Assembly: GCA_009746045.1 (NCBI GenBank)
Contig: RPFO01000015.1
Location: forward strand, 1,572,529-1,636,528
Direction of reading: 5' to 3'
Length of the DNA: 64,000 nucleotides
Source: Mesostigma viride
Taxonomy: Eukaryota > Streptophyta > Mesostigmatophyceae > Mesostigmatales > Mesostigmataceae
The notes beneath the pieces are model-generated. The model searched no databases. It had not been told where the DNA came from and saw only the letters and a list, made by a program, of their open reading frames with translations. The translations under genes and the position numbers were made by a program. This document shows, piece after piece, positions 29,095 to 60,640 of the stretch; position 1 is the first letter of the stretch, and the number at the start of each line of letters is the position of its first letter.

Positions 29095-29100
29095 AGCAAA

Positions 29101-33473: not shown

Positions 33474-33504
<31 letters not shown>

Positions 33505-35389: not shown

Positions 35390-35734
35390 AGTTGAGTAAC
35401 TCTAGAGCCCTAGGATCTGGCTCTAAGTTCCCCATGTCCGTCCGCACGCCTTCCGCTAGCGTCCGCTAAGCCGCCGGCTATAATCCGGCGGTCCGATGCG
35501 GTCGACCGGTCTAAGGGCGGCGCCTAGGGCCGGCGCCACCTAGGCCCCAGTCCGGGGCCTTATCCGGGTCGGTACGGACAGCTAGCTTGTCCCACGGTTA
35601 CGGCTAACCGGATAGGGTTTGCTGGCTAAGACATAAACCAGTGGTGGGCCAGCTCCGACAGCAGTTCTCTGTGTTCACCTTATCCCAAGCTCAACGTGAC
35701 CGACCGCCATAGCTGAGCCGGTCGGGCTTTAACT
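35390..35734 (+). repeat. 5' LTR of Copia A
   Basis: 345 bases beginning AGTTGAGTAACTC and ending GGGCTTTAACT, practically identical to 49602-49945. The terminal AGTT/AACT is an inverted repeat. It is preceded by GTACA (35385-35389), which is found again after the 3' LTR. Confidence 0.92.
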
Positions 35735-35753
35735 TGTATTCATAAAAATCCCG

Positions 35754-36930: not shown

Positions 36931-38063
36931 AGCACGCTCGATACCCCTTCTTTTGCTCAATGCGTCACGCTGAACCGGGCCGTCGTAGAGCCTGATGTCG
37001 TTCCTAAAAGCAACGTGACTGCATCCTCTGTCTCCTTCCGTGATGTGCTCACGCAATCCGTTGATGCTGCTCTGGCTCTGTCGCGCCAGGATCACGTGCT
37101 TCCTGAGCACGGGTCTACAATGCGTGACCTAAGCAATGTGGTGTCTTCTAGGTCGGGTGTGTACAACGCCGAGCAACCAAGCACTACTGCAGCACCCCAG
37201 CTAGATACTGGGGCGGTTGGGCCTATGAGGAATGTTGTGACAGTGCAAGAGAATGCTGGGCGGGCAGATGTTCTCGGTACACACCACCCTAGTGTGGATC
37301 TTCACATTGGCAAGGTGCTCACAAGGGCGGCCTTTCGTGCAGCCTCTGAAGCTGCCAAGTTAGCCAATGTCACTACCCCAGTAGTCACCCCACCTGTTGA
37401 GAATCCTGACAATGCCACTGCACCTCAGGCTGTCACCCTGAAACTGTTAGCATACCAGATGCACCGTGCATACGGGCATGAGGCCCAAGCCGAGGTAGAG
37501 GGGGCACACATGTTGGGGCACCTTTATACAACGAGCTGAAGAATGTGCGTGCTCAGTGTCCTGCCTGCATCAAGATCAGGAAGAACTCGCGTAGGCGGCA
37601 TGCCAAGACTCCACCCTTGGAGCGAGGGTACCTTGTGGGGGATGTCATGCACATGGAAGGGGGGACACCTATTTCATAGTCAAGGATAGGTTCAGCAAGG
37701 CCACCTACATTGAGCCGCTGCCTCACATGTTTGAGGCTGACCTGCACAGGGCTATCAAGATCAGCCTGGCTTTCTTTCATCCCGTAGTGGAGCTCATGCT
37801 AGACCAGCAGTTCCGCTGTGTGCAAGGTTTGCCGGGGATGGAGGCCGTGGTCATCGTGGGGCGTGAGGATCACGGCAATATGGGCATGATAGATCGCACT
37901 GTAAGCTATGTCAAGACTGTGGCAGCCAAGCGACAGGATAACCCACATGGCAAATCCTACGCGGTCAAGACGGCGTGGTGCAAGGAGCTCATGCATGTGT
38001 GCAACCATAGGCACGTGCTTGATGTCAAGGGCTTTGGGCTAGTCACGCCTCGGGGGCTGTCAG
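36931..38063 (+). pseudogene. pol of Copia A, first part: integrase (frame-shifted, split by Copia C)
   Basis: Low-complexity linker, then the zinc-binding HHCC: HRAYGH (about 37470) and CPAC (about 37558). The catalytic core follows: GDVMHMEGG (first Asp), MLDQQFRC (second Asp, 37800) and REDHGNMGMIDRTVSYVK (about 37862-37915), where the third position is Asp, not Glu. Single-base frame changes occur at G-runs near 37512 and 37662. The domain is cut after VTPRGL at 38063 by Copia C and continues at 46449. No protease lies between the gag knuckles and this integrase. Confidence 0.7.
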
Positions 38064-38717
38064 ATTTGCGCAGCAACTCGTCAGCAGAGCTTGTGAGCTC
38101 CTGGTCCTTGCCGGCTGGAATGACCCAAGGCTGCTGGCTAGCAACCTTTATCCTCACACCAGGCCTACGACCCTCGATAGGCTCGCCACTCGTCGTGACG
38201 ACCAAGGTTCGTGTGTGAAGACGCTCGTTGCCTCGTTGAGCCTCGAGCTATATGCAACCTCGTTCCATCCTTGTTCCTCGGTCATGAGCAACGCTGGGCA
38301 ACGCTACATTGCCAGAGCCTCGTATCGCTGCCTTGCATCCTCGTTGCAGGCAGCATACAGGAATCTCTGGCTATCCTGTGTCTAGGACAGCACAGGACCT
38401 GCCACAGTCCTGCAAGGACTTACATCCTTGCAGACCTGCTGGCTGGTTACTGGCTTCTACTAGCCACAGTACCGTTGAGCCCTCAGTACACTGTGTCCCA
38501 GTCACGTGAGAGTCCAGGCTAAGCCTGTGCAGGCACGGCCTGCCACGTGTCCTGTCCACTATGCCCTGAGTGTGCACCGCCCTCGCCCACCGGTCGGCAG
38601 TACTTCGGGACTTGATAACTTTCTAGTCCCTTGTCTGTTCTAGGCGGTTGACACGGCGTTGGAAAGGTCTCCTCAACCTGCATCCATCTAGCACATTGGT
38701 GCCCCAATATGCTAACT
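38064..38717 (-). repeat. 3' LTR of Copia C
   Basis: 654 bases; in element orientation it begins AGTTAGCATATTGG and ends GCGCAAAT. It is preceded in that orientation by GAAAGGGTTGGAG, a possible polypurine tract. It differs from the 5' LTR at about two sites (near 38566 and 38640). Confidence 0.9.
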
Positions 38718-39649: not shown

Positions 39650-42600
39650 CTACTCTGGCCCTCCCCCCTTGGAGGCCATGAGCCCACGAAGCAAAGGGTA
39701 TTGCAGCTCAGCCTTCTCCTCCAGCTTGGTGAGAGCATCTGCAGGGTTGTCCACGCCAGCCACATGTTCAATGTTAGCTAAGCAAGACATTTCCTTGAGC
39801 AACAAATAATCAAGGTCCCTGCTCCTGGCCAGCTGCCTGTGCACAAACTGCACCATGCCCATGCTGTCAGTTCTTACCAGTGTGTGCATCTGCAACCGAC
39901 AGGAAGCCACTTGACATAGCTGGTAAAATAGCTCCCTCAAGTAAAGAGCAGTATGAAGCCCTTCACAGATTGCCCTGCACTCAGCAATGTCACTGCTGGG
40001 AGTTACCCTGTTCTGCAACCGACTGTACCAGCAGACCAGAGAGGACTGTTCCTGCACCAGGGATATTAATGCTGCTGCACGGCCCCTGACCTCTGTGACC
40101 TTCCTACTATCCATAGAACTGTCCACATAGAGCATCATGTCAAAAGGCCTGTACAAATCCAAAGGACCCAGCATGAGAGGGGGAGACATGCGAACAGCCT
40201 CTACCACTCTCTCAGCACCCACCTCAACCAGTTGGGAATCGGTCAACCGACTCAGTACCAACAGGTCAGGAGCACAAATGCTGGCCAGCCATGCCAACAT
40301 ACCTCGTATTGTTGCACATCTGGCCTGGGTGATGGGCTCCTGCAAGGCATCTATGATCTGCTGAGGATAATCCTTACCACCCTCCAGCTGGATGGACCAT
40401 GTACCCTGATGGACCAAGGTCGCCTGCATTCCACAAAACACCATGGGCTCATTCTCAACCATGTACTGGATCTTACCCAGTTCAAACCGTTTCTGGATCC
40501 TGGCCAGAGTCAACTCTTGCCAAGTGGGATGGCCCAGGAGATGCAGATCATCACCATGCAGGGAGGCAAACGCTGGCAGCCCCTCATAGCTACCCTGAAA
40601 CAGACAAGGATCAACTGGAGAGACTGAGAGACCACAGACAGACCTGAGGTACTTCTCCAAGCTCTTCCTCCAGATGATGGGACTCGATCTAAGGCCTTCC
40701 ACGCCTTTGAGAATCCTCAAATACCTCGTCTTCAGCTCTGCCCTCCACACTGCAGGCACCTTAACAAAGAAAGGGGGTATTGTGCGCCAAGTATCCTGTG
40801 CTTCCTGCTGATCACCCTTAAGAAAAGCCCTCTTGAAATCTACCAACACAGAGCTATAGGGTATCCCCTTCTGCAGAAAAGACAAATAAATGCACAACAA
40901 AATCCTCCATGTATCATGCAGCATCCCTGGTGTGTAAAGCTCCTCATCTGCTAACTGTCCAGTGCCATGGTACTCAGTCACAACTGGTCTAACATGTGGC
41001 ACCTGCACGCCATCTACCTCCTTGAGCTTGAGGACAAACATCAATCTGAGCAGCTGGTGATCCTCAGGGAGGACATCCACAGGCTCTGCACAGTTGGCAA
41101 CTATCCACTCATGCCCAGAAGCAACAAAGCCAAGAGTCCATGCCTTAGCCATCTTGGGGCTTTGCATCATCTCCACTAGCTTGCGCCAAGGTACAGGACT
41201 CGTTCCTGGGATCTGGTACCTCTGCACACCCAACTCACGTGGGTCAAACGTAGTAGGGAGGATCAGCAGGTCCCCAGCAATGGGCTCCTTTGTATCAGGA
41301 CCCTCTGCCTCTAGACCCCTCACAGCCCTTACAGCCACACTAAGACCCTGGGAGTAGCGATATCTCTGCAAGGGAAGGCGGCCCTGCCCTTCTAATGCTA
41401 GCTCCTCAGAGGATATCCTCACCCCTGGTAAGCACAAGAAGTTCTGACCTAGAATGGCAGGCCCCTGATACCCTTCAACCACACTGAACGTGGTGGGCAC
41501 CCCCAGGATAGGCACACTCACTTCTCCCAAGATCTTCATGGACACATTCCCAGAGAAATCAGACACAGCTAGGCAGCTAGGGGATGACCACTGCAAGCCT
41601 GCAGCATCCTCTACCCTTAGAATGGACACCTGTGAGTTGGTATCCACTTCTAGTGCTGGTGCCCCACATGACCCCCATCCCGTGAGCTTAGATACCTTGG
41701 GATCACGCTTGCTGTTCTGCAGAGCTCGAATGATGTCCGCCATAAGCAGCCCCCTGGACTGTGGTGCAGCCCTGGCCACCTCTGGCCTTGTGACAGACGT
41801 CTCAGCAGACTCCTGCTCACCCTCATCCATCCAGGACAGACCATAATCCAAGCATGGTGGGTTAGCATCTGCTGCCTGGCTCTCATCCTGCTCATCTCCC
41901 TCCAAGGGAGGATCAGGGCCGTCTTCAGGCCAGATTGCAGTTGGCCTTCTCTCCTTGACGTGAGCCCAGGATAGCCTGTACACGTGCTTGGGATTACTCT
42001 CCAAAGCCACCAGACAAGAATGGTTAGCTTCCTCAACATGGGTTACCTGCCCATCTTGCCACTTGCCACGCTTGCCTGGTAATGACGGTTCCTTCCACAT
42101 CCTGACCCTCAGTCCCACCTGGGGCCTCAGCATTTTCCAACCCTTGTCCTTACGCCTCAATCTGGAAAACACCCTGTCTGCCTTCTTCAGGCAGGCTGCC
42201 ACCACGTCCTGTGATAGCATACCAAACTGCAATGCCAGGGGAGAGACTGCCACACCATCATAGTAATAGGTTACCCTGTGGTTAAGCTGCTCCTCAATCC
42301 CCTTACACCAAGCTGCTTTCTCTAGAGCTGATGCCACAACAGGCACACTCCTAGCTGCTAGCACCACTGTTTTTACTTCACGTATAGATCTCTCTACAGC
42401 TCCCTGCTGCCCATGGGATTCCCTAGGGACCACTACCAACTTACAAGGAAGCTGGTCAGCCAGCTTGATCAAGCAGTCAAACTGCAAGTCAGCTTGCACC
42501 TTGGTGTACACCCCAAAGCCTGGCAACAAAGACTGGAGACCCATCAACAGCTGATGCTCCTGCATTCCAGGAAGAATGGTCAGCAACCTATATCTGCTAA

Positions 42601-43234
42601 ACCTATCCACCCCCACCAACAGATACATGCCCCTGATGTGTTGGATGTCCACCTGGATATCCCCCCGCTCTCTAGCAGGTTCTCTGGCATGGGACTGTGG
42701 GAGGCGAACAGCATTCTCCTGACAGACACAATTCTGAGCAGCTGCACTGCAGGCCTCTAGCAAAGGCTCCTTGCCAATCTTCCAAGCAAACATCTCTGCC
42801 TGCTTAGAGTGACCAAAGATATGGTGTAGAGTGTTTCCAGCCTGAGCATAGCTCAACCCCCTGTCAGCCTGGCTGCACAGAGAGGAACGTGACAAAGACT
42901 GTGTGCTTGGGATAGCACGACCCACCTGCTGTTCTCTTGCTCCAGGGACCTCCTCCAAGGTAGCTCGGCTCCCAGAGCCAGCCCCGGTTCCCACAGAAGC
43001 TGCAGGTCCTTCCAGTCTGGCGGCTTGACTCCCAGAGTCAACCCCAACAACTGGAGACCCTGCACCTGCCACAGGCACAGGGAATTCCACTGCTGCAGCA
43101 GCGTTATTGCAATCATTGAGTGGAAGCACCTCATCATTCCCAACCCCTTGCTGCTGCACAAGAGGGACACCCCCATTACTATGTACAACTGTTCGTCCCA
43201 CTAGGGGTGATTGACTATTTACAGGGGACAACAT
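39650..43234 (-). CDS. pol polyprotein of Copia C: integrase, protease, RT, RNase H
   Basis: 1194 uninterrupted codons. Domain order with approximate residues: zinc-binding HHIFGH (138) and CVCQ; integrase core VDIQHIRG (195, D), ADLQFD (248, D), ESHGQQGAVE (271, E); a C-terminal barrel ending KHVYRLSWAHVKERRP (about 405). Then a retropepsin-like domain: LEVDTNSQVSIL (528) and flap-side GYQGPAILGQNFL (about 590). Then RT with DFKRAFLKGD (801) and LHGDDLHLLG (896), and RNase H with YVDSSMDS (1038) and ALTKLEEKAEL near the C-terminus. The polymerase box is HGDD, not the usual YVDD. The protease lies after integrase, whereas Ty1/copia pol normally has it before. The product should self-cleave and insert element cDNA into the genome. 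It is in the same frame as gag, separated by one UGA at 43241-43243. Confidence 0.85.
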   Translation of the reverse strand: MLSPVNSQSPLVGRTVVHSNGGVPLVQQQGVGNDEVLPLNDCNNAAAAVEFPVPVAGAGSPVVGVDSGSQAARLEGPAASVGTGAGSGSRATLEEVPGAREQQVGRAIPSTQSLSRSSLCSQADRGLSYAQAGNTLHHIFGHSKQAEMFAWKIGKEPLLEACSAAAQNCVCQENAVRLPQSHAREPARERGDIQVDIQHIRGMYLLVGVDRFSRYRLLTILPGMQEHQLLMGLQSLLPGFGVYTKVQADLQFDCLIKLADQLPCKLVVVPRESHGQQGAVERSIREVKTVVLAARSVPVVASALEKAAWCKGIEEQLNHRVTYYYDGVAVSPLALQFGMLSQDVVAACLKKADRVFSRLRRKDKGWKMLRPQVGLRVRMWKEPSLPGKRGKWQDGQVTHVEEANHSCLVALESNPKHVYRLSWAHVKERRPTAIWPEDGPDPPLEGDEQDESQAADANPPCLDYGLSWMDEGEQESAETSVTRPEVARAAPQSRGLLMADIIRALQNSKRDPKVSKLTGWGSCGAPALEVDTNSQVSILRVEDAAGLQWSSPSCLAVSDFSGNVSMKILGEVSVPILGVPTTFSVVEGYQGPAILGQNFLCLPGVRISSEELALEGQGRLPLQRYRYSQGLSVAVRAVRGLEAEGPDTKEPIAGDLLILPTTFDPRELGVQRYQIPGTSPVPWRKLVEMMQSPKMAKAWTLGFVASGHEWIVANCAEPVDVLPEDHQLLRLMFVLKLKEVDGVQVPHVRPVVTEYHGTGQLADEELYTPGMLHDTWRILLCIYLSFLQKGIPYSSVLVDFKRAFLKGDQQEAQDTWRTIPPFFVKVPAVWRAELKTRYLRILKGVEGLRSSPIIWRKSLEKYLRSVCGLSVSPVDPCLFQGSYEGLPAFASLHGDDLHLLGHPTWQELTLARIQKRFELGKIQYMVENEPMVFCGMQATLVHQGTWSIQLEGGKDYPQQIIDALQEPITQARCATIRGMLAWLASICAPDLLVLSRLTDSQLVEVGAERVVEAVRMSPPLMLGPLDLYRPFDMMLYVDSSMDSRKVTEVRGRAAALISLVQEQSSLVCWYSRLQNRVTPSSDIAECRAICEGLHTALYLRELFYQLCQVASCRLQMHTLVRTDSMGMVQFVHRQLARSRDLDYLLLKEMSCLANIEHVAGVDNPADALTKLEEKAELQYPLLRGLMASKGGGPE

Positions 43235-43240
43235 CTCAAG

Positions 43241-44347
43241 TCATGGCTTACCCACCTGGCCAGAGCCTGCTCCAGCAGACTTGGCCTGGTCTGGGCAGTC
43301 ACGTCGCCAATGACCCGTCCTGCCACATCCAAAGCACTTGTCATCCTTCCCAGCAGCAGCCTTCTTCAGGCCACCCTGGTTCTGGCTGCTCTGACTGGCC
43401 TGGGTGCCCTGGCCCTGGCTCTTGCCTTGCCCTTGGCCACCCTTGTTCTGCTGACCACCCTGGTGACCACCAGCCTGCTGCTGACCCTTGCCTTTGGATC
43501 CCTGCTGCTGGCCCTTGCCACCCTGGTTACCATTCTGCCTGCGCCTGTTAGCCCTCTGACGCCTACTAGGTCTGGTTTCTCCCTGAGCACCCTGCCCAGG
43601 GGCGTCACCATGGACCTGATGAGCGGAGGCTGAAGGGGCACCAGTCACCTGGATTGCCTTGCAAGCAGCATTGTCAGATGGACGGATATTGAAAATAACC
43701 TTTTGCAAGGCTGGCCACGTCCCATCTGTCTGATCAGCAAACATCCTAGCTGCATTTCTCCCATCCACACTCAGCCCCATGCGATCCAGGAAGTAATCTG
43801 CCACTGCTCTATCAGTCAGATTGAAGCCATGCTTGGCCCCCTTCTCCCTGATGCGTGTGAGCCGCTGCAGCTCCTCAGCTATTGTGCCCTTGATCTCAAA
43901 GGTATCATAGCTGAGCTTATAGTGATTAGTGAGGTTGAGTACCTTATCAGAAAACTCCTGACGTAGGCCCTCTAGGAACTGAGACCAAGTCAGCTTGTCC
44001 TTGACAGCCTGCCTAGCCTTGTCCCTCACCCTCTCACTTGAATCCCTATTAGTCGTGGATGTGTGGAATACCTGCACAAGGTTGACAGTGGGATCTACAG
44101 AGCATGAAACTAGCTCCATATCCTCCAACCACTTGTCTAGCTCTTCCTGTCCCACAGGAGGCTTGAGAGGCTTCTGGCCATTCATCACAGCCACAGCACT
44201 CATATGAGGTCTAGTCCCAGGCAAAGCACGAGGGTCACTGCCAATGACAGCAGCTCCTACGGTGCTAATGGCGCAGGAACATAGCTGCAGGAACACCAGA
44301 CGGAGGCACACATGGTCTCTTACCAGGTGCTTGCCGTTCAGCATCAT
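43241..44347 (-). CDS. gag of Copia C
   Basis: Open for 368 codons. The likely start is the Met of MSAVAVMNGQKPLKPP (about 44203), since the preceding residues look like leader or intron. Capsid part: EELDKWLEDMELV, TWSQFLEGLRQEFSDKVLNL and ADYFLDRMGL. Then a Gln/Gly/Lys-rich nucleic-acid-binding tract and one zinc knuckle, CFGCGRTGHWRRDC (C-x2-C-x4-H-x4-C), 20 residues before the stop. The stop is UGA followed by CUU GAG AUG in the same frame as pol, consistent with stop-codon readthrough to make Gag-Pol. Gag of Copia D is homologous. Confidence 0.8.
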   Translation of the reverse strand: MMLNGKHLVRDHVCLRLVFLQLCSCAISTVGAAVIGSDPRALPGTRPHMSAVAVMNGQKPLKPPVGQEELDKWLEDMELVSCSVDPTVNLVQVFHTSTTNRDSSERVRDKARQAVKDKLTWSQFLEGLRQEFSDKVLNLTNHYKLSYDTFEIKGTIAEELQRLTRIREKGAKHGFNLTDRAVADYFLDRMGLSVDGRNAARMFADQTDGTWPALQKVIFNIRPSDNAACKAIQVTGAPSASAHQVHGDAPGQGAQGETRPSRRQRANRRRQNGNQGGKGQQQGSKGKGQQQAGGHQGGQQNKGGQGQGKSQGQGTQASQSSQNQGGLKKAAAGKDDKCFGCGRTGHWRRDCPDQAKSAGAGSGQVGKP

Positions 44348-45006
44348 TCTGGCCCTCCCCCGTCAGCACCACGCCGTCGGTTGGCCACCCTGCACGCTCC
44401 TCCCCTTGTGCCACCTCTTTCCTCTTCCGGTTGGAAGCCCTCCTGCCATTGACGCCCTCTGCCGTTGGGATCGCCTGTCCCTCTGGCACGACGTTGGCGG
44501 GGCCTCCCGTGTCTGCCCTTGCCTCACCCCCGCCATCCCCCGCTCCGCCCCGCTCCCGCTGCCGCCCCCGCGCGTGTTACGAAGCATTATAGAATACCAC
44601 AGAAAACACACGCAGATATGGCTGCTGGAACCCTCAGGCTCACGCACTTACTCCAGACGAGGCCGCCTCCTGGCTTGCACTCGCCTGCCCCTCCTCACGG
44701 TCTGGTCGCTCCTCAACACCCTCAGCAACCGGTGTGGCTGCTGCTGCCGCTGCGACTATCTGGAGGCTTGGGTTAAACTCTCCCAGCACGCAGGTCACAG
44801 GTCGCCCGTCCTCCTTGCGTTCGACTGGATGTTGTGTCTCGCCTGGGTTGCGATGCCAAGCAAGATTGCGCAACCACCGCTTACCGCCGCCGACAAGCTC
44901 GTTCTGCTCGCCTCGGCCGTAACGGTCGTACTCGTGAGTCACCTCACGAGGGAATGCAGATCAGCTCTGCCTTCCTCGTAGGTCTCGGTAGTGCCGTCGC
45001 CCTCGT
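44348..45006 (-). other. Region between ORF0 and gag of Copia C, possibly spliced
   Basis: Several minus-strand frames look protein-like: YDRYGRGEQNELVGGGKRWL, GETQHPVERKEDGRPV and EEGQASASQEAASSG, the last followed by GTAAGT at 44651-44646. A second donor-like GTAAGAG lies at 44323. I could not find a single splice scheme that joins ORF0 to gag in frame. It is either an intron-containing leader or a decayed continuation of ORF0. Confidence 0.35.
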
Positions 45007-45771: not shown

Positions 45772-45794
45772 GAAAGCGTGGAAGCAATAGTACG

Positions 45795-46448
45795 ATTTGC
45801 GCAGCAACTCGTCAGCAGAGCTTGTGAGCTCCTGGTCCTTGCCGGCTGGAATGACCCAAGGCTGCTGGCTAGCAACCTTTATCCTCACACCAGGCCTACG
45901 ACCCTCGATAGGCTCGCCACTCGTCGTGACGACCAAGGTTCGTGTGTGAAGACGCTCGTTGCCTCGTTGAGCCTCGAGCTATATGCAACCTCGTTCCATC
46001 CTTGTTCCTCGGTCATGAGCAACGCTGGGCAACGCTACATTGCCAGAGCCTCGTATCGCTGCCTTGCATCCTCGTTGCAGGCAGCATACAGGAATCTCTG
46101 GCTATCCTGTGTCTAGGACAGCACAGGACCTGCCACAGTCCTGCAAGGACTTACATCCTTGCAGACCTGCTGGCTGGTTACTGGCTTCTACTAGCCACAG
46201 TACCGTTGAGCCCTCAGTACACTGTGTCCCAGTCACGTGAGAGTCCAGGCTAAGCCTGTGCAGGCACGGCCTGCCACGTGTCCTGTCCACTATGTCCTGA
46301 GTGTGCACCGCCCTCGCCCACCGGTCGGCAGTACTTCGGGACTTGATAACTTTCTAGTCCCTTGTCTGTTCGAGGCGGTTGACACGGCGTTGGAAAGGTC
46401 TCCTCAACCTGCATCCATCTAGCACATTGGTGCCCCAATATGCTAACT
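45795..46448 (-). repeat. 5' LTR of Copia C
   Basis: 654 bases, almost identical to 38064-38717. It should hold the element promoter, although no TATA box is evident. It is followed by the GTCAG target duplication and the interrupted Copia A integrase. Confidence 0.9.
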
Positions 46449-46893
46449 GTCAGCGGGCACCTACTCACCCGAGGTAGTAGAGGCATACCAACAGCATCTA
46501 CAGGATACCGCCGCCAAGCTGCGGCTCAAGGATGCCACGCTGCCTGATTTGTCTAGCGCTTTTGAGGTCGGGCAGTTGGTCATGTTCCACAAGGAGAGCT
46601 CGCCCAGCGGCAAACGGGGCACCATGCAGGGGCCTGGGGCCATCACAAAGTTAGACTGGCCGCTGCGGGTCATAGACATAGAGTGGAATGATCGGGTGTA
46701 TAGGGTACCATGGGCATCGGTGGCAGGCTATAAGCAAGGGGATAGCATGGAGAGTGAGCTGGCAGCCAACAGGGCACTGGGGTGGGTAGTGAAGGATAAT
46801 GCGCCTGTCGTAGCATCTGAGGTGGTACCCCACGGGTCGCTCCCAGGGGCAGACACAGCTACACCCCCCCCCCTCCCCTGGGCCCCAATATGA
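46449..46893 (+). pseudogene. Integrase C-terminus of Copia A
   Basis: Continues the integrase cut at 38063: joining GL to SAGTYSPEVVEAYQQHL restores the sequence found uninterrupted in Copia E (GLQSGIYPPDVADHWEAHL). The barrel LVMFHKESSPSGKRGTMQGPG and RVYRVPWASVAGYKQGD follows. The frame ends near a C-run at 46862-46873, then resumes at 46966, so a homopolymer indel is likely. Confidence 0.7.
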
Positions 46894-46965: not shown

Positions 46966-49222
46966 GTGCTAGCCACGGATAATGTGGGAGGCCCGCCTAG
47001 CGTGGCCTCGCCGGAGGGTCAGGGTCCTGCCCATGCGCCTCGCCCACCTAGGGACCTGGCTTCAACGGTCACGGCCTTGTGGCGTGCTCAGGCGCTTAAA
47101 GCGAAAGCTGCATCAGGGGTGGCTCAGGTCAAAACTCTCTCACAGGGGGTCAGGCCGGTTAAGTCAGCCTTGTTTCCTACGTGTAGACCGTGGCAGCTGG
47201 TGGCTGTGGACACGCAAGCATCCGTGTCTATTATCTCTCGTCGGGCAGCCACCCTGTATCCAGTGCTAGAGTCGCCGTACAAATCGGTGACCGACTTTGC
47301 AGGCACTTCGGCATATCAAGTTACCGGGATGGTGGTGCTGCCGGTGTTGGGCATTGACACGCCGTTTCACGTCGTGGATGGCTACGAGGATGTGGCCTTG
47401 CTGGGCGAACCTTTCGTATCATACCCGGGGTTCTCAGTGTCCGCTGACTTGCTGTCAGTCGCGGGGGTGGGCAGCATCCCGCTTCGCGAGTACCACGCTC
47501 CATTGGGGGTGGTGGTCGGGCAGCCCGGCGTCGTGCGGCGCTTACCGATGGCGGCGTTTTCCACACCGCCGCTCGTCCAGTCCATCATTCAGCCTCAGGA
47601 TTGGCACCCGCGCAGCTTCGGCCTCCACTCACACTCACTGGCGGCGGATAGCCCTGTGACGTGGGAGCAACTTGTCCTGGACTGTCAAGATCCTCTCAAG
47701 TTTGCTTTGTGGCGCGACGCGTTCATTCGAGCCAAGGAGCAGTGGCGAGAGCGCGAGGTCTACCGAGGATTGGAGAGTGTGCCAGCCGGGGCCACGCGGT
47801 TGCGGTTGAAGTTCGTGCTCACCTACAAGCCGGACGAGACCAACTCTTCGGTGGTGTTCCGGGTAAGGCCCGTGGTCACGGAGACGAAGGGGTCCTCCCC
47901 GCTGGACGCCAAGGATCTTTATACCCCTGGGCTCAACCATGTTTCGCATCGGCTACTGACGGTCATCTACTTGGGCAAGCGGAACGCGGGCAAGGACTAC
48001 GGGATGTGGTGCGGTGACTTTCAGCGGGCATTCCTCCACAGCGACGCTGGGGTCGCGCAGCAAACATGGCAAGGCACCCGCTACGTGGTGAAGGTCCCGG
48101 TGGTCTGGCAGGATGGCACCATTGGCAGCGAGTATATCGAGCTGTTGACAGGGGTGGAGGGGCTGCAGAGCTCTCCCATCATCTTCCGCATTTCCGCGGA
48201 GGAGGTCTTGCAGAGCTTAGGGGCCACGTACCATCGCGCGGATCCTAACTTCTTTGTGGTCCCCACCGGCGTCCCTGGCGAGCCAGCCCTCTTCGTGTGG
48301 CATGGCGATGACTTCAAGCTGGTGGCACCTCGCACATTTGCTACCCAGTTTCTTGCTGCAGTGGCGGCTAAGTTTCCCCTGGGCAGGGCGGTGGATCATG
48401 AGGAGGGTAAACCCGTGGTGTTTTGCGGCGTGCAGTCTACGTTGCAGCGGGATTCGCGTTCTGGCGAATGGGTCATGCACATGCAGGATAGCCGCAACTA
48501 TGTGGTTGACCTGCTGGCCGACCTCCCGTCCCCGCTGTTGGCAACCCATGGGCCCTCGGTTAAGGGCAAGCTCGGGTGGTTGGCAGACACGGTGGCACCT
48601 GATTTGGCGGTGCTCGCTCGCCTGCCCGATGATGTGCTGGAAGGACTAGGGTCCATTCATGTTCGGCGGCAGCTGGCCATGACGCCCGGCATTGTGCTTC
48701 GTGGGCTCGATTGCTCACAGCCGGTGCACCTCGAGATAGTGACGGATGCTAATCTAGAGACGCGCACAGTGACTCAGCCAAGTGCGGGCCCGCATGGGGG
48801 CACTGTTCTTTATTAGCAATGAGGGACAGCCTGGCATGTTGTTAGATTGGTACTCGCGCTTGCACAGCCGCATTGCCACTAGCCCCAACACGGCTGAATG
48901 CCGGGGCATTGTTTCAGCTATCTCACATGGCATGTGGCTGCGGTACTTGCTGGGTTGGGTATTTGGCTCGTGTGGGTTCACTCTTCACTGGACTAGCACG
49001 GTGCACACTGACTCACAAAGTTGTTTGGCCTTCCTTGACAATCCCTATGCGCGGTCACAGGACGTTGATTACCTCGTACTCGCTGAGGCGGCCTCCTGCG
49101 TCACGCGTCTCCAGCACATCGCGGATGAACTCAATCCCGCGGACACACTCACCAAGGAGGCGCGGGAGGCTGCCCCGCAGTACGCAGTGTTGCGCAAGCG
49201 CATGACGATGCAACACACGTGA
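46966..49222 (+). pseudogene. pol of Copia A, second part: protease, RT, RNase H (one frame change)
   Basis: 46966-48816 is open for 616 codons. A retropepsin-like domain comes first: LVAVDTQASVSIIS (about residue 81) and GYEDVALLGEPFVSYPG (about 145). RT follows with RLKFVLTYKPDE, CGDFQRAFLHSD (about 350) and VWHGDDFKLV (about 445; HGDD box), then TDANLETRTV of RNase H. At about 48785 the frame slips by one base and RNase H goes on in 48782-49222: LLDWYSRLHSRI, NTAECRGIVSAI, HTDSQSCLAFLDNP and ELNPADTLTKEA. Order integrase-protease-RT-RNase H as in Copia C. Confidence 0.75.
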
Positions 49223-49601
49223 GCCACACAGGGTTACGGCTCGGGCGCTTTATGAATACAGCCATAACTCACCCTGTGTTGCTAGCATTCACGAATATCA
49301 TGGTGGTAGTTTTTTTTGCTTGTCCTGACCATACCCTAGCCACGTTGGACGGTGCCTTGGGCCCGTCGGCGGGTCACTGGTTCTAATAAATGGGTCACCT
49401 TTTGTCTGGTGGGATAGTTGTTTTTTTCTCGATACTTATTACATCACTATTCATGTGTGATCACAAGGGCGCAGGTCGATACCGTGGTGATTTTGACGGC
49501 CTTGAGGCCCCCTTGAGTTCCCTACCTTAGAGGGTTTTGTATGGTCTGCATTTGATGTAATTATTTTGATAATTAATCAAAGAACAAAAGAGTATGTTGG
49601 A
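49223..49601. other. 3' non-coding part of Copia A
   Basis: AT-rich, no ORF. A purine-rich ACAAAAGAGTATGTTGGAG lies just before the 3' LTR and may be the polypurine tract. Confidence 0.5.
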
Positions 49602-49945
49602 GTTGAGTAACTCTAGAGCCCTAGGATCTGGCTCTAAGTTCCCCATGTCCGTCCGCACGCCTTCCGCTAGCGTCCGCTAAGCCGCCGGCTATAATCCGGC
49701 GGTCCGATGCGGTCGACCGGTCTAAGGGCGGCGCCTAGGGCCGGCGCCACCTAGGCCCCAGTCCGGGGCCTTATCCGGGTCGGTACGGACAGCTAGCTTG
49801 TCCCACGGTTACGGCTAACCGGATAGGGTTTGCTGGCTAAGACATAAACCAGTGGTGGGCCAGCTCCGACAGCAGTTCTCTGTGTTCACCTTATCCCAAG
49901 CTCAACGTGACCGACCGCCATAGCTGAGCCGGTCGGGCTTTAACT
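49602..49945 (+). repeat. 3' LTR of Copia A
   Basis: Matches 35390-35734 with practically no differences. It is followed by GTACA (49946-49950), the second copy of the 5-bp target duplication. The flanking sequence continues as the 5' leader of Copia D gag. Confidence 0.9.
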
Positions 49946-50004
49946 GTACATACTTTCTTTTGCTGCTTTACTCAGGTGTTTGCTAAGACAGCTTGTAGTA
50001 CATC

Positions 50005-51121
50005 ATGGCGGACGGGCGCCGTAGCAAGGGTGCCCCAGCCAGTGGTAATAATGGAGGTGCAGGTAGTGGGACCGCTCACGTAGATGACGTGGGGGTTACC
50101 GGCGAGATTACCAATGTACCTATCAATAATAATACACATGCTGTCTCTGGATATGATCTCACCACACAGGGTCTCCTTATTGTTAATCAGCTGCAACCTG
50201 TCACTTCAGACTCTAAGCCAAAGCAGGCAGAGGAGTTTGTGGAAGGACTAGAGGGGTTTCCAAGTTTGTACGGTGGTACAAACTATTATCAGATCTGGAT
50301 AGGCAGCCAGACTTTTGGCAAGTGCACAGATCAGATTAAAGACCTCACTAGCTAGAGAGTGCAAGAAGGCCAACAAGGCCTGGGCAGTCTACGTGGCAGA
50401 GCTGAGGGAGCTGCTAGAGGATCAACGGAAGAAAGTGGGGATCCATTGGCAGGATAAATACCAAGGGTGGGAGGTTAAAGGAGACCTTATCCAAAACTTC
50501 CTCAACTATTGTAAAATGGTTGAGGAGGGCAGGGCTCATGGCTTTAATGTTGCTGACAACATAGCCCTGACTAACTGGCTTAAGGTTTCTGGGCTGGACA
50601 AGGCAACACGTGGCTCTTTAAAGGTCATGTGTGCCCCACACTCTACCCTGAAGACCTATAAGGTCATCATCAAACAGGCACTCGAGGCAGAGGAGCTGTT
50701 TGAGGGTGGAGTGCCAGCTGTGAAGGCTACCCATGCAGGTGGGCGTGCCCAGGGGGGTTCCAGGGCGTCTGAGGCTGAAAGAAGCCAAGGAGGGCGTGGG
50801 GGCAACCATAACAAGCGGAAGGCCAACCATTCACCCGACCCTGACGGGCAATCACATGCCAAGTCGGTGTTCAGGAGGGTGGGTGGCAAGCCCAAGCCGG
50901 GTAACGCGTCTGACAACGGGGGTGGTGGCCAGGGCAAGTCAAAGATCCAGTGCTACCTGTGCAAGGGGTGGGGGCACATCAAGAAGGAGTGTCCCAGCTT
51001 CAAGAAGACCCAGGGCCAGGGCAGCAACAAGAACGACAAAAACAAAAACAACAACAAGAACAAGTCCCAGGCAGGCCAGCCTTCAAAGGGCAGTCAACAA
51101 GAAGACAACAAGGAGCAGTGA
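50005..51121 (+). pseudogene. gag of Copia D (one frame change)
   Basis: ATG at 50005, 55 bases after the GTACA site. Frame 1 runs to about 50350 (SDSKPKQAEEFVEGLEGF, NYYQIWIGSQTFGKC). The capsid then continues in the frame of 50315-51121: AWAVYVAELRELLEDQRK, WEVKGDLIQNFLNYCKMVEEGRAHGFN (compare GAKHGFNLTDRAV in Copia C gag) and ADNIALTNWLKVSGL. A basic Gly/Lys/Asn-rich tract contains one zinc knuckle, CYLCKGWGHIKKEC. The UGA stop (51119-51121) is followed by CUG in a frame that stays open into pol. Confidence 0.7.
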
Positions 51122-52836
51122 CTGTCTGAGGCAACCCCTACACACCTTAATTCACCCAAAGGGGAGGCCAGGTGCTCCAATGCAGATTTGATATCTGGGC
51201 AACAAGAGGGTGATCTCCAGGTTCAGGATGGCACCAGGTCACCTGGAGAGGTACAGGTTCCTATGAAGACGTCCTTGACAGCTGGTGCAGCTGTAAGAAT
51301 GTCTGACCCCATGCATCCTCGTGCTGGGCACGAGGGTGGACCTCTCATTTTGAGAGAAACCAATGCACAACCACAGAGGGGTGTGAAGGCCTCTGGTGGT
51401 ATGCATGTGGTCCCTGCTGGCGGTCCAGGTATTGGGCATGAGCAGGGTGACTCAGGCTCTGAGTCAGAACAGGATGGAAGTCAGCATGGTGATGCTGGAC
51501 AACCTGACAGCACAGTCCTGACTGTGCCAGGGACTGCTTCCTCCGTGTACCAGGAGTTGGGTGTCCGAATCCACAACATGTTTGGGCATGCCACTTCTCT
51601 GTCAAACAACTTTGCCTTCCGTATGGGCAGGGCACCCCTTCTCAAGGCGTGCCAGCAAGCTGCCTCACGGTGTAAGTGCCAGTTGTCCTCCAACAAGCCC
51701 AGGAAATCACATGCCAAAGCTCGACCTCAGGGCATTGGTGATCTGCAATGTGATATCCAACACATCAGGGGCATGCAACTGTTGGTGTGCGTGGACAGGT
51801 ACACAAAGTACAAGGTGCTAGAGCATTTACCTTCTATGAAGAACAGGTACTTGCTGGCTGCCCTGCAGAATGTAAGTAAGAGCCAAGTTTCCTACCACAA
51901 GGATCCAGGTGGACATGCAGTTTCAGCATCTCAAGGGTGATCCCACCCTTCCTGAGTTGCTGGTTACACCTAGGGAGGCTCATGGGCAGCAGGGTGCTAT
52001 CGAGAGGGCAATCCAGGAGGTCAAGAAATTGATCATCTCTGAAGACTGGGTACCCTTGTCTGCACCTGCACTTGTCAGGAGTGCATGGTTGAGGAACGTG
52101 GAGCAGCAGCTGAACAGCAGGGTCAATTTCTACTATGATGGAGTTGCTGTCAGCCCAATGGGTCTATATCATGGCCTGTGCCCCCCACATGTGCTGGAGG
52201 GCTGGAAACATGCTGCACATGTCACCTTTGCCAAGCTGAGGGAGAAGGACCGGGGTTGGAAGATGCTGGAGCCAACAGTGGGTCAGAGGGTATTAGCTTG
52301 GAAGGAACCGAGCCTGTATGGCAAACGTGGTAGCTGGAGTCCTGGGGTGGTTACCCAGGTTGATGAAGCTAGCCACGCATGCTTGGTCAGCATGGAGGAC
52401 GAACCAAAGCATGTACACCGGCTGAGTTGGTCATATGTCAAGCCTAACCTGATGAATGAGGGCAGTCAGGCACAAGGCTCACAGGATCTGCAGGATTTTC
52501 AGGTCCCAAGTGACATCACTGACGCAACGACCACATCTGTTGCAGGGGAATCTGTCAGGCTGCCCTGGCCAGGTTGCAGAGGTACTTGTTGAACAGGCTG
52601 CAAGGTCAACAGCTGGGGAGTCAACTGTCAAGCCCAAGGCTCTAACCAAGCCCAGGGGGACTAGTTTGGCTGGATTGATTGGGGCTCTGCAAAGAGCCAA
52701 GAAGCAGCCCAAGGTAGCCAAGCTCAGGTGGCATGGCAATCTGAGGCTGGACACTGCCTTAGAGGTAGACACTAATTCTCAGGTTTCCATCATTGGGACC
52801 AGAGCTGCAGCAGGGTACAGCATGACTGAACCCAGC
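51122..52836 (+). pseudogene. pol of Copia D: integrase and start of protease (truncated)
   Basis: Same frame as gag after the UGA, open to 51940: zinc-binding HNMFGH and CKCQL, then QCDIQHIRG (first catalytic Asp). At about 51905 the frame slips; 51909-52592 carries VDMQFQHL (second Asp) and REAHGQQGAIERAIQEVK (Glu retained). Then VEQQLNSRVNFYYDGVAVSP and the barrel KHVHRLSWSYVKPN. After another slip near 52560, the protease begins: ALEVDTNSQVSIIGTRAAAG. It is cut at 52836 by the LTR of element F; RT and RNase H are absent from the window. Closest to Copia C. Confidence 0.7.
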
Positions 52837-53448
52837 TGTTACGAGCCGCACCAGCGGCTCTGAAAGACCCTGGTCTAGCGTGGGTTACGCCTGAATGAAC
52901 TCGGAATCTGCTATCCGCCCGGACTACGTGAATGTAGCCCTGAATTCTAGCCAGTACGCGGAATTACTAGCTAGGCCCTGAATGCACAACTAGATAAATT
53001 ATGCATATACATGGAATGCACGAAGGGCGTTAGTGCAGCCCAGATTTGACCCCTGGTTCGGCAGACGAGTTTTACTCAAGTCGATTTCATTCCAAACCAA
53101 AGATAGGAAGCCATTGTCACCTACGACATTTGTCCAAGACGGCGTGCATGCCAGCGGGCCGGCCGGGGGCCGAACCTCTAGCGCTGCAATGAATATCAGC
53201 CGTAGATGTACATAGTATCCGCCAGTCTGGCACCCGGTACCTGGCAGTCCCGGGTACAGACCCGTCACACACCAAACCGAAAGCAAAGCCACGGGTACCT
53301 GGGCCGGCTGATGGAATAACTCGGCCAAGTCCCCGAATCTAAAGTAATAACTATCGAAAGTCTCAAACAATATCAAAATGACTTTCGACTGACCAAACTA
53401 ATTTATTTTAGGAATTGTTACGCCCAAACATGGGTTAGGGCCGTAACA
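52837..53448 (-). repeat. 3' LTR of element F
   Basis: 612 bases; plus strand begins TGTTACGAGCC and ends GGCCGTAACA, so both termini carry the 7-bp inverted repeat TGTTACG/CGTAACA. It interrupts the protease of Copia D. Related to the F1 LTR at 21202-22428. The partner LTR is not in the window. Confidence 0.75.
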
Positions 53449-55794: not shown

Positions 55795-57850
55795 TCATGT
55801 CATCATGAGCTGCCGCAGCAGCTTGTACTGAGGCCCCGACAGCATCGCTGGCTTGGTCAAGGCATCGGCAATATTCTCGCTCTCGGGGATCCACCGCCGC
55901 TCATCCAACACCGTGGCGGACTCGGCCAACACAAGGTAATCTAGTTTGGTGGTGGAGGCGAGCGGGTTATTCAGAAACTCAATTATTGACTTGCTATCTG
56001 TGCACAGCCGCATGCGGAGCGACAGCGCCACGCGGGCCTTATCCGCAATCCATTGCAAAAGATGCTGCACATAACACGCATGGTCGACAGCGGAAATGAA
56101 CGCGCGACACTCCGCGCGATTGCTGTCTACCACTACCCGCTGATGGATGCGGCTATACCAGTCGACAATAGTGGGCTGCCCAGTGGGGCTATCAAGAAAA
56201 AAGATGGCCGCCTCCCGCGCGCGCAGCTGCGTGATGGTACGCGACTCCAGGTTCGCGTCAGAGTAAATGGTCATTGCCACCGGGCGGGTGATATCAACCC
56301 CCCACACGCGCAGGCCCGGTGACGCCAAGACTTGCGTCCGAAGATGCTGCGCTCCCATGCCCGCAAGCACGGCGTCGGGCGCACGCGCGTAGATGGACAG
56401 GTCGGGTCGCACCGTGCCCGCGAGCCACCCCAGCTGGCCGCGCAAGTGCGGTCCCGCGGACGCATCCAGCCGCTCAGGCAGCGATTGCGCGAGCTTGTCG
56501 GCGTATTCCTGCTTGGCCGCCATGTCAATGCACCAGCCAACCGGTGTGCGGTGCAAAGTGTAGGTTAGGCCACAGAAAGGGACGGGGGTGTCGGGGTCCA
56601 GCCACAACGTGCGGCTAGTGGGCAAAAGCTTGGCCACAGCGGTTATGAACTGCCGGACCCACGCCCGGGGTCCAATAAGCCGCCAGTCATCCCCATGCCA
56701 TTGCATGAACGCGGGCTCGTGTGGGTTGGGTGTGTGGATGTGAAAGAGGTTGCTATCGATGCGGGAAAACACCGCCCCCATGCTAGCAAAGATGCGTTCA
56801 GCCGTCTTGCGAAAGATGATGGGGCTAGACTGCAGGCCCTCCACACCAAGGAGAAGCCGCAAGTACACACACCGCAGCTCCCCCTGCCACACCAAAGGGA
56901 CCTTGACCACATACACCGTGCCACGCCACACTTCCTCGGCCACTGCCGGGTCGCTATGGAGAAAGGCCCGCTGAAAATCTGAGCAGGCCATGGCATAGTC
57001 CAACCCCCGATCCAACAGCCCCAAGAACACCGATGTTAACACCCGGCTAGTGGTCTGCGACAGCCCGGGCGTAAACAATTCCTCCTCCGACAACTCAGAC
57101 GAGCCCCTAAACTCCGTGACACAGGGCCGTACATGAAATGTGACAGGGTCAGTGGGGAGGACCTGCTTATACTTGAGCACAAACTTCAAGTTCAGCTTTA
57201 CCGCCCCTTGCGGCACCTCCATCAACTCCCCATACACCCCATACATCGCCCACTCCAGCTGCGCGCGCAAGAAAGCCGCGCGCCACTTATGGAACTTGAC
57301 AGGGTCACGGCAGTCCTCCTTAAACTGCGGATAACTAACAGGAGATTTAGTGGCGATGCTCCAGGGAAAAATGCCAAGACTGCTGGGGTGACACTTCTGC
57401 GGCTGCGTGACATCGGCTACCAGCGGCTCTGCCGTATATTCCGCCCCGCGAATGGCCCCTACTGCAGTGGCATAATCCTCAGGGTGATTAATAGCCTCGG
57501 GGGGACCCCGGCCCGTGAGGGCTGCAAGCGCTACGTGATATTGGTACAAGCCTATGCTCCCCACCCCCTCGAGGGTCACCAAGCCGGCTGACACAGAAAA
57601 CCCGGGGAGGGAAACAAAAGGGTTACCTATGAGGGTGATCCCCTTGTAACCCTCTAGCACTTGCACAGGGACATCTACCCCTAGGATGGGCATGAGCACC
57701 TGCCCAGCCACCTTATAGGCCCGCTGCCCGTCAAACCCCGCAACCTCCTTCCAACTACTGGGCAGCAAAGGGTAATAGGCCTCGGCCGCCGCCGGGCTCG
57801 TGATAGACACCCTGCCATGGTATCTATGGCCGCAATATGCCTAGAGGGAA
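55795..57850 (-). pseudogene. pol of Copia E, second part: protease, RT, RNase H
   Basis: 57810-55795 is open for 671 codons. The protease starts slightly upstream in another frame (HIAAIDTMAG, about 57822), and adding one G to the GGG there joins it to VSITSPAAAEAYYPLL. Flap-side GYKGITLIGNPFVSLPG follows. RT: LNLKFVLKYKQV, CSDFQRAFLHSD (about 56965) and QWHGDDWRLI (about 56700; HGDD box). RNase H: YSDANLESRTI, VDWYSRIHQRV, NRAECRAFISAV, CTDSKSIIEFLNNP and SENIADALTKPA. Gene order and motifs match Copias A and C. Confidence 0.75.
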
Positions 57851-57865
57851 CATCATGAGCTTCAG

Positions 57866-59542
57866 TCACAACGTGGGGCACTTATCTGGCATGACGCGGC
57901 TGACTTGTGCCGCACCCCCCGCTGCCGCCGCCTTGAGCTTGTCCGCCTTGAGCAGCTGTCGGAGGACGTGGGCCAGCTGGGAGCCCACGCCCGCGCCTGA
58001 CGATGTGTCCGGCGCCGCCACGGTGGGCGCTGCTGGGGTCGCGGGGAGGGGCTGAGGTAGCGCCCCCGCGTCGACCCCGGGGACTTGCTCCGGCGCGGCG
58101 CCTGCAGGGGGGTGGGCAACAAGCGCATCATGCACAGCCACCCCAAGTGGGGTGGGTAGGACAGGTTCCAGCCGGGCCCGCTTGGCCGGCCGGCTATCCA
58201 CATCCCAACCGAGCTGGCGGCTGTGCTCCTTGGCCGCCTGGACCTGGGCATCGGACGCCTTGTACCGATACACCTTATCCCACGGGATGAGATAGTCCCT
58301 ATGCTCCCAGTGCACCTTCACCCGCCTATGCACCCAGTCCAAATCCACCACCATGCCTGGCCCTTGCATCTGCCCCCGCTTGCCAAAGGAATTCTCCTTG
58401 TGAAACAAGACCAACTCCCCCAGCTCCCACTCCTGCGACAAGTCAGGCTGGGTGCGGTCTAACTGCCGCCTAACCTCAGCGGTGGTAGCGAGGTGGGCCT
58501 CCCAATGGTCTGCCACGTCCGGAGGGTAAATGCCCGACTGCAGCCCCCGCGCGGTAATAAGACCTAGTCCCTGGGGCAGCTTGAAAAGCACCTGGCTGTT
58601 GTACTTGTCCATGAGCAAGCGGCACCACAGCGCGCGTTGTGCATAAGGCTGCCCCGCGGGCTTGAATCCTAACCCGCTGGCCTGCTGCTTGGCTGCCATG
58701 CCCTTTACGCTGCTGATGTGCCTATCAATCAGCCCCAAGTTGCCATGGTCCTGCCGCCCAGCAATAACCACCATCTCACAGCCCTCCCGCCCCACAATGC
58801 AATCAAATTGTTGGTCCAACATGACCTCAGAAATGGGAAAGAAGTGAGACATGGCAATGCGCAGCCCCCGCCACAAGGACTCCTCTACCATGCTTGGCAG
58901 GGGCTCGATGGCTAGGAACTTGGTATAGCGATCCATCAAGACCAAATAATAGTCCCCCTCCTCCAAATGCATGACATCCCCCACTAACCTCCCCCGGTAC
59001 GGGGAAGGAGTCTTAGCATGCCAGCGCCTACGCTTCTTCCTGACACTTGCGCATGCGTGGCACTCCTCTAACTCCGCCTGAGCGACCTTCAACCCCGGCG
59101 CCCCCATAAGCCGAGTCGCCCAGTCTAGCGTTTGCCCCGCCACATGACCCACCGCAAGGTGAATCTGGTGAGCAAGCATCCGCAATCCTATGGCCGTGGG
59201 GGTGGTGCCATCCCCTTCTATGCTAGGCACCTGCCCCGCCAAGCTCTCTGCATGTGCATTCCTGTCGGCAATGTGCTCTAGTGAGGCCTTACTGAGGCGG
59301 CGACCCAACTCCACGTCTACGTGAGGGGCTACCTCGGCATCTGCCGGCACTATCTCACCTGAAGGGGTGAGCTCCGGAAGGGCGTGTTCAGGCTCTATTG
59401 CGACCACGCTGGGCACGCACTCCTGATCAGCTGCAGCACTTGCACTTCCATTCTGAACCACTGACGTGGGAACATTAGGACTACAAGGCACAGCATCCTC
59501 ACGCCTAGCCGACTCACCGCGACACACATCACCTCTATGACG
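57866..59542 (-). CDS. pol of Copia E, first part: integrase
   Basis: In frame with gag after one UGA, open to 57866 (more than 550 codons). Zinc-binding HLAVGH and CHAC. Core: GDVMHLEEGDYYLVLMDRY (first Asp), VMLDQQFDC (second Asp) and RQDHGNLGLIDRHISSVK, where the third catalytic position is Asp as in Copia A, not Glu. C-terminal barrel: ELVLFHKENSFGKRGQMQGPG and HRDYLIPWDKVYRYKASD. Ends with a linker LLKADKLKAAAAGGAAQVSR before the protease; one-base slips separate the two at about 57868 and 57818. Confidence 0.75.
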   Translation of the reverse strand, partial: RHRGDVCRGESARREDAVPCSPNVPTSVVQNGSASAAADQECVPSVVAIEPEHALPELTPSGEIVPADAEVAPHVDVELGRRLSKASLEHIADRNAHAESLAGQVPSIEGDGTTPTAIGLRMLAHQIHLAVGHVAGQTLDWATRLMGAPGLKVAQAELEECHACASVRKKRRRWHAKTPSPYRGRLVGDVMHLEEGDYYLVLMDRYTKFLAIEPLPSMVEESLWRGLRIAMSHFFPISEVMLDQQFDCIVGREGCEMVVIAGRQDHGNLGLIDRHISSVKGMAAKQQASGLGFKPAGQPYAQRALWCRLLMDKYNSQVLFKLPQGLGLITARGLQSGIYPPDVADHWEAHLATTAEVRRQLDRTQPDLSQEWELGELVLFHKENSFGKRGQMQGPGMVVDLDWVHRRVKVHWEHRDYLIPWDKVYRYKASDAQVQAAKEHSRQLGWDVDSRPAKRARLEPVLPTPLGVAVHDALVAHPPAGAAPEQVPGVDAGALPQPLPATPAAPTVAAPDTSSGAGVGSQLAHVLRQLLKADKLKAAAAGGAAQVSRVMPDKCPTL

Positions 59543-60640
59543 TCACTTGGGCATGGCTGGCCGTGGGGCGCGGCATGTGTTGGGGTCGTGTCCAGGAAGC
59601 CGAACCGCCCAGCAGCGCCGGCACACTCGAGTCGCCTTGCCGAGGTCCAGCCGCAGCGTGCAGTTGTCCTCGGTGTGCCCCACGCCGGTGCACCGCTCGC
59701 AGACGACCTTCTCCTTGGGGACACCACCCTGCTGCTGTTGCTGCCTGCCAGTGCCGCCCTCCTGGCAAGGCTGCTTGCCCTGACCGCCTCCCGGCCCGCG
59801 TTTGCTGGACGCGTTCTGGTTGTGCCGACCACCGCGAGCTCGGCGTTTGCCAACCAACATTCGCACCACGTTGTCGGCCACCGTCGTGGACAGCTGGGTA
59901 ACAAGAGTGGTCAAGTCCGACAGAGAAGCTGCTGGCGGGGTCGAGGCAGGCACAGGGTTTAACTGAGCAACTGTCGGCAGCTTGTTGTTACGCCTGGGGC
60001 CGCCCCGGTCCTTGAACATCTCTCGGATGTGCGCCATGGCTGCGTTGAACCGTTTCTGGTCGTCCGGGGTGCCCACTACCACGGAAGAAGCTAGCGCAAT
60101 TTTCATGCCGAGACCGGCCTTGACATTGGCACGGCTCTCTGGCGTCAGCCCCAGCGCATCCAGAACTGCGCTGAGTAAATATTCGCTACTCATGTGCTTC
60201 AAGACACCCTTGCTCCGGACCTGGGCCGCGAATCTGGCCATGTCCGAGCTGAGGTAATTGGGGTCAAGCGACAGGTTGCGCACCAGCGCCTGCCCCTCCT
60301 TTTCCTCGTCAGGAAAGCTTGAGGTGTCGAGCACCTCTTGCAGGGCCTTCACTGTGTCGGGCCAGGTCCACGCCTCTTTGCTGGCGTTGATAATGACCCC
60401 TCGCACGTCCGCATTACCCGTAGCCTCGTTGCATACCTCTGACCGGCGCAGCTTGGTGAGGAAAACTGCGTCGGACAGTTCGTTGTAGTCCTGCCGGAGC
60501 TCGCCCAGGCTGTTAATAAACTCCTCCACGGCGGACGGCGTCAGAATTTCTGGCAGCTTACTTGGCAGCTCTTCTTTCTTGAAAACTTTCCGGGCAGTTG
60601 GTGCTGACTGCTGCACTAGGAAGGGGGGTGTGACATTTTG
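59543..60640 (-). CDS. gag of Copia E (5' truncated)
   Basis: About 360 codons. Capsid part: PSAVEEFINSLGELRQDYNEL, WTWPDTVKALQEVLD and YLLSAVLDALGLTPESR. Aligns with Copia A gag but lacks about 60 N-terminal residues: at about 60640 it runs into TGTGACATTTTG repeats. Nucleocapsid: a basic Gly/Gln tract and two zinc knuckles, CERCTGVGHTEDNC and CRRCWAVRLPGHDPNTC. Ends PAMPK-UGA-CGU, and the same frame stays open into integrase. The 5' LTR is absent. Confidence 0.75.
   Translation of the reverse strand, partial: QNVTPPFLVQQSAPTARKVFKKEELPSKLPEILTPSAVEEFINSLGELRQDYNELSDAVFLTKLRRSEVCNEATGNADVRGVIINASKEAWTWPDTVKALQEVLDTSSFPDEEKEGQALVRNLSLDPNYLSSDMARFAAQVRSKGVLKHMSSEYLLSAVLDALGLTPESRANVKAGLGMKIALASSVVVGTPDDQKRFNAAMAHIREMFKDRGGPRRNNKLPTVAQLNPVPASTPPAASLSDLTTLVTQLSTTVADNVVRMLVGKRRARGGRHNQNASSKRGPGGGQGKQPCQEGGTGRQQQQQGGVPKEKVVCERCTGVGHTEDNCTLRLDLGKATRVCRRCWAVRLPGHDPNTCRAPRPAMPK

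Follow-up and report, generated by a model that had tools for sequence, protein, structure and literature searches.

In a 64,000-nucleotide stretch of the genome of the alga Mesostigma viride (contig RPFO01000015.1; the window), we analysed four families of long terminal repeat (LTR) retrotransposons, named Copia A, C, D and E, whose pol region has the order integrase, retropepsin-like domain, reverse transcriptase (RT) and RNase H. We consider it likely that they form one Copia-related group, in which pol is expressed by readthrough of a stop codon and the protease works embedded between integrase and RT. The order is seen most directly in Copia C, a complete, young element present at full length on the minus strand (38063-46448), whose pol is one open frame encoding all four domains. 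An earlier reading of the letters alone (the original prediction) had described an unbroken Copia C pol of 1194 codons with protease motifs near residues 528 and 590, located past integrase and before RT. Indeed, the frame has 1196 residues (1194 codons from the first ATG), with VDT at residue 532 and AILGQNF at 595, and the domain (residues 530-629) lies between integrase (~136-430) and RT (666-1016).

One domain order in four families

Within the window, Copia A and Copia E are colinear with Copia C, as tblastn places integrase, a domain with the D-T...G motifs, RT and RNase H in succession, although the window copies of both are broken (that of Copia E in pol) and that of Copia D is truncated. 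A Copia D copy outside the window (L057) has an uninterrupted open frame of 1208 residues that contains the end of the integrase part, the retropepsin-like domain, RT and RNase H, so that the same protease position claimed earlier for Copia A, D and E was recovered in all three. A Copia A copy that lacks the Copia C insertion (L041) carries gag, integrase and the retropepsin-like domain in order, across three frames.

The host genome (440 Mb across 2243 contigs) contains numerous copies. For Copia C, 25 of 39 genomic matches span the whole pol without a stop, while 13 of 73 Copia E matches lie within a 1249-residue frame, 63 of 70 Copia A matches lie within a 797-residue frame covering the retropepsin-like domain and RT, and all 150 Copia D matches are 97-100% identical to the integrase piece in the window. 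These counts include the window's own copies and are lower bounds, because only the best candidates were scored; one Copia C copy listed at '93%' (L039) turned out to be 99.9% identical in DNA. Copia A, C, D and E are thus four recently amplified families with a shared order of integrase, retropepsin-like domain, RT and RNase H. A pattern search for relatives elsewhere returned 135 stretches in viral contigs and 123 in genome contigs, none of which was confirmed. As a separate observation, at least 63 near-identical Copia A matches have the same 797-residue frame, yet L041 is frameshifted in and past integrase; Copia A copies look as if they had been mobilised by something else.

Could the order be spurious, produced by nesting, by misassembly or by a single rearranged copy? 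Copia C is in fact nested in Copia A, its insertion site being the Copia A integrase gene, a point that the original prediction had missed, and the window copies of the other three families are damaged. However, the order is found within one frame at numerous loci spread over different contigs, as well as in the Copia D copy, and is common to four families that are 35-61% alike in the retropepsin-like domain. We reject this explanation as extremely improbable.

The domain between integrase and RT

Pairwise identities of the domain (A-E 53/101, C-A 36/100, C-E 36/100, C-D 61/100) were compared with those of RT (175/354, 127/349, 122/349 and 190/351, respectively), of the linker from integrase to the domain (29/80, 13/72, 16/84 and 24/77) and of the linker from the domain to RT (10/35, 6/31, 11/31 and 9/33). 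In three of the four pairs the domain exceeds both linkers in conservation; the exception is C-E, in which the short second linker ties with it. By this measure, conservation of the domain between families is close to that of RT, and since its identity equals the RT level, it appears to be real and not a product of chance. Nonsynonymous divergence (dN) in the domain is 0.40-0.71 between families, whereas synonymous divergence (dS) is saturated, close to saturation or could not be computed; this is consistent with purifying selection, though not a precise estimate of it. The alignment of the four families has 23 invariant columns, including the D and T of D-T.

The best of five structure models led by the Copia A sequence reached a predicted local distance difference test score (pLDDT) of 79. 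Foldseek searches with this model supported the retropepsin reading: retropepsins accounted for all 50 PDB matches listed and all 50 VIA rows listed. Assuming no gap at residues 5-13, the VIA ranges place Asp13 of the model on residue 25 of the human immunodeficiency virus (HIV) protease, 140 of RC1339, 26 of Mason-Pfizer monkey virus (M-PMV) and 32 of xenotropic murine leukaemia virus-related virus (XMRV), which we take to be the catalytic aspartates. The domain is thus predicted to have a retropepsin fold, as modelled on the Copia A homologue. The top Pfam match of the Copia A domain was gag-asp_proteas (expectation value, E, 0.23; profile positions 13-89 of 92).

Gag-pol junction and proposed expression

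The Copia C gag has a CCHC zinc knuckle at residues 342-357 (zf-CCHC, E 2e-5). Gag of Copia C, D and E terminates in a TGA that is followed by C, and pol continues in the same frame; this UGA-C junction was present in 8 of 8 Copia C loci, the window's own included, and in one Copia E copy elsewhere. From this junction we infer UGA readthrough. Most ribosomes would stop at the UGA and release Gag, while a few would read through to produce a Gag-integrase-protease-RT-RNase H polyprotein. Within the particle, the embedded protease would then form a dimer that relies on the Asp of D-T-x and cuts both of its own flanks, so that integrase would be freed on the upstream side and RT-RNase H on the downstream side. 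The absent glycine of the active site would have to be tolerated or compensated.

Search for a second protease upstream of integrase

We scanned the region upstream of integrase for D[ST]x followed 50-110 residues on by a hydrophobic-hydrophobic-Gly triplet, which is a motif scan and not a profile or fold test. Copia C has three D[ST]x triplets and Copia D two, none with a partner. Copia E (copy L040) has two triplets with partners, both in gag, and none in the 125 residues preceding integrase. In Copia A (L041), three of five triplets have partners, one of them at residue 395 between the Cys/His region and integrase; an isolated LDTGA has none. Hence, the scan found no upstream motif pair that any of the families share, in agreement with the earlier statement that no convincing protease lies between zinc knuckle and integrase.

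Evidence against the embedded protease and competing explanations

Several results weigh against the proposed reading. (i) Regarding the fold, the other four Copia A-led models scored pLDDT 65.2, 61.7, 47.0 and 43.8, and just one Foldseek match out of 331 had E <= 0.001. The structural check of the original prediction succeeded with the Copia A-led model but not with the Copia C-led one, which was unusable (pLDDT 40.4), and the profile search for a retropepsin went against it, as Pfam and PDB sequence searches with the domain gave no significant protease match. (ii) Regarding the active site, the catalytic triplet D-[ST]-G is absent from all four families, the glycine of D-T-G being replaced in D-T-Q (Copia A), D-T-N (Copia C and D) and D-T-M (Copia E), a feature on which the original prediction had not remarked. 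(iii) Regarding expression, no stop codon separates gag from integrase in Copia A (L041), RNA structure past the UGA did not exceed chance (z -0.41, 0.67 and 0.12), and the Copia A copies that were read contain frameshifts.

The lack of significant sequence matches and the failed Copia C-led model would also be expected of a conserved linker domain that is not a retropepsin and has acquired its D-T and hydrophobic-hydrophobic-Gly motifs by chance. We regard this as very improbable: every PDB and VIA match listed was a retropepsin, the Copia A domain has a protease family as its top Pfam match, even at E 0.23, and Asp13 falls on the expected residue of four proteases, given the ungapped alignment.

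The replaced glycine bears on a different explanation, namely that the fold was kept while protease function was lost. The domain would then serve in assembly or dimerisation, and maturation would depend on a host protease, on the protease of another element acting in trans, or would be absent. The genome does encode other retropepsins, of Gypsy type and in ordinary Copia elements. Nevertheless, this scenario seems rather unlikely to us, as the Asp and Thr are invariant in four families, the whole domain is conserved like RT, and the motif scan revealed no other protease candidate within the elements that any of the families share. Moreover, an ordinary Copia element of this genome (L043, 1460-residue frame) has D-S-A (VLDSAASSHM) instead of D-S-G, so that the glycine is not universal in this host. 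We thus favour an active embedded protease, but because of the missing glycine its activity is something we infer, and this is our chief ground for caution.

Relationship to ordinary Copia elements of the same genome

As controls, two of 150 matches to ordinary Copia elements (L042 and L043) were read by the same method. Both have gag, zinc knuckle, protease (VVDTG and VLDSA), integrase, RT (HVDD box) and RNase H in this order, whereas in the group a protease-like domain separates integrase from RT, whose box is HGDD. In hhalign comparisons, the RT of the group matched those of L042 and L043 (Prob 95.8, E 7.5e-9), and the RNase H, which follows RT directly, matched its ordinary Copia counterpart (Prob 85.6, E 5.6e-6). 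By Pfam, the Copia C RT matched RVT_2 with E 0.002, below the curated cut-off, and a Pfam search of the Copia A and Copia E frames found no RVT_2. RT identity between the group and ordinary Copia is 20-25%; the RTs of Copia A, C and E share 35-49% with one another, and those of L042 and L043 share 62%. Judged from these values, the group is related to Copia but has diverged from it deeply.

The putative integrase, which lies upstream of RT as in Ty1/Copia, has core residues D198, D251 and E283 in the Copia C pol. Its assignment is weak by profile: rve matched with E 0.16, below the cut-off, and the best hhalign match was to ordinary Copia integrase, yet weak (Prob 3.3, E 0.013). The third catalytic residue is Glu in Copia C and D (AVER, AIER) and Asp in Copia A and E (MIDR, LIDR), as read in L041 for Copia A and in the window for Copia E. 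Copia A and Copia E thus seem to have a D-D-D triad.

The group resembles Ty1/Copia (Pseudoviridae) in its LTRs, its zinc-knuckle gag, the position of integrase and its matching RT and RNase H. The Copia A and Copia C LTRs lack TG..CA ends, a further difference from Ty1/Copia; they start with AGTT instead of TG. Because the protease-like domain departs from the Ty1/Copia order, while RT, RNase H and the placement of integrase ahead of RT agree with it, we class the group as a Copia-related variant and not as a plain member.

Origin of the domain

In hhalign comparisons, the retropepsin-like domain of the group matched none of the ordinary Copia profiles. Direct comparison with Copia protease gave E 0.095 in the wrong register; that with Gypsy protease had the right register and E 0.28. 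Shuffling the columns 60 times produced a range of values that covers both. The Gypsy protease set comprised ten loci of 150 matches, all of one family, and its filter possibly removed at least one. Three exons of the Ddi1 gene of the host were also retrieved. The domain is therefore not traceable by sequence to Copia protease. As the comparison of Copia with Gypsy protease profiles was likewise silent, capture and relocation are both compatible with these results. One scenario, which we put forward tentatively and hold to be possible but doubtful, is that an old Copia-related group lost its Copia protease and acquired, between integrase and RT, a retropepsin of different ancestry (Gypsy- or Ddi1-like) that works without the D-T-G glycine.

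Features of the window

The coordinates of the four elements are given in Table 1. The flanks of Copia A suggest a TGTACA target duplication. In the sense direction of Copia C, a 323-residue frame (45007-45978, minus strand) lies between gag and the 5' LTR, overlapping the LTR. Outside the four elements, the window contains a 777-residue frame (14506-16836, minus strand; RVT_1, E 6.4e-25) from a retroelement of another kind, a frame with DUF7869 (27436-29112, minus strand; E 7.1e-11) and a frame with Nucleotid_trans (11383-12597, plus strand; E 1.6e-13), probably a host gene. Overlapping direct repeats, 77-82% alike, with several open frames on both strands occupy 33120-34100.

Table 1 Features of Copia A, C, D and E in the window.
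Feature	Position	Strand	Remarks
Copia A 5' LTR	35390..35738	+	349 bp; 99.7% identical to 49601-49948
Copia A integrase, part preceding Copia C insertion	37411..38059	+	Several frames; tblastn
Left target duplication of Copia C, GTCA	38059..38062		Possibly GTCAG (5 bp), counting next G
Copia C 3' LTR	38063..38717	-	655 bp; 2 mismatches vs 45794-46448
Copia C pol frame	39650..43240	-	1196 residues (39653-43240) plus stop
Copia C RNase H	39653..40150	-	pol 1031-1196
Copia C RT	40193..41245	-	pol 666-1016; HGDD box
Copia C retropepsin-like domain	41354..41653	-	pol 530-629; fold modelled on Copia A homologue
Copia C putative integrase	41951..42835	-	pol ~136-430; zinc region, core, C-terminal barrel-like region
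Copia C gag frame	43241..44362	-	373 residues; TGA 43241-43243, then C
Copia C 5' LTR	45794..46448	-	655 bp; minus-strand reading AGTTAGC...CAAAT(C), not TG..CA
Right target duplication of Copia C, GTCA	46449..46452		Matches left copy
Copia A integrase, C-terminal part beyond Copia C insertion	46447..46722	+	tblastn
Copia A retropepsin-like domain	47200..47499	+	VDTQASVSIIS ... LLGEPF
Copia A RT and RNase H	~47580..49204	+	RNase H in second frame from ~48773
Copia A 3' LTR	49601..49948	+	Pair of 35390-35738
Copia D gag frame	50303..51121	+	Zinc knuckle; ends TGA, then C
Copia D integrase	51557..52442	+	Two frames
Copia D retropepsin-like domain, start only	52762..52839	+	VDTNSQVSII; truncated beyond this; whole domain in L057
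Copia E RT and RNase H	55798..57500	-	Start approximate
Copia E retropepsin-like domain	57523..57840	-	Initial residues IDTMAG in another frame; broken copy
Copia E integrase	58364..59170	-	rve E 0.039, below cut-off
Copia E gag frame	59543..60751	-	Ends TGA, then C

Known systems and implications

LTR elements are sorted into superfamilies with the aid of domain order. Among titles and abstract beginnings of the open-licence papers listed by our searches, we found no description of the order integrase, protease, RT, RNase H, while like terms retrieved the usual order; the earlier statement that the arrangement was undescribed thus agrees with our search. Compared to other retropepsins (Ddi1, retroviral and Rickettsia proteases), the domain shares the predicted fold and a D-T at the expected place, but differs by the lack of a glycine past D-T in four families and of any significant sequence match.

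Partial parallels exist in Gmr1, whose protease remains ahead of integrase, and in Tca2, a Copia-type element. Gmr1 is likewise a lineage with a displaced integrase, namely one with the Copia-like integrase order, but it belongs to Ty3/Gypsy (PMC2774666). Tca2 of Candida albicans has a UGA codon between gag and pol, as Copia C, D and E do, and the junction alone is reported to have given no readthrough in yeast; the abstract of that study does not address where the protease lies (PMC2194720). The Troyka LTR retrotransposons of animals were recently separated partly on the basis of unusual LTR ends, but their order is protease, RT, RNase H, integrase (PMC12440569).

If the capture scenario were true, the group would combine a novel pol architecture with a novel variant of the retropepsin active site. 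One study reports that elements with an unexpected domain order were always discarded as likely incorrect predictions (PMC6317226). Here, four families have such an order, their copies are numerous and nearly identical, and frames are open; filters of this kind may hence hide real lineages. But, how would a particle mature with a protease that lies behind integrase and lacks the D-T-G glycine? This is the question that the Copia A, C, D and E elements of M. viride raise.
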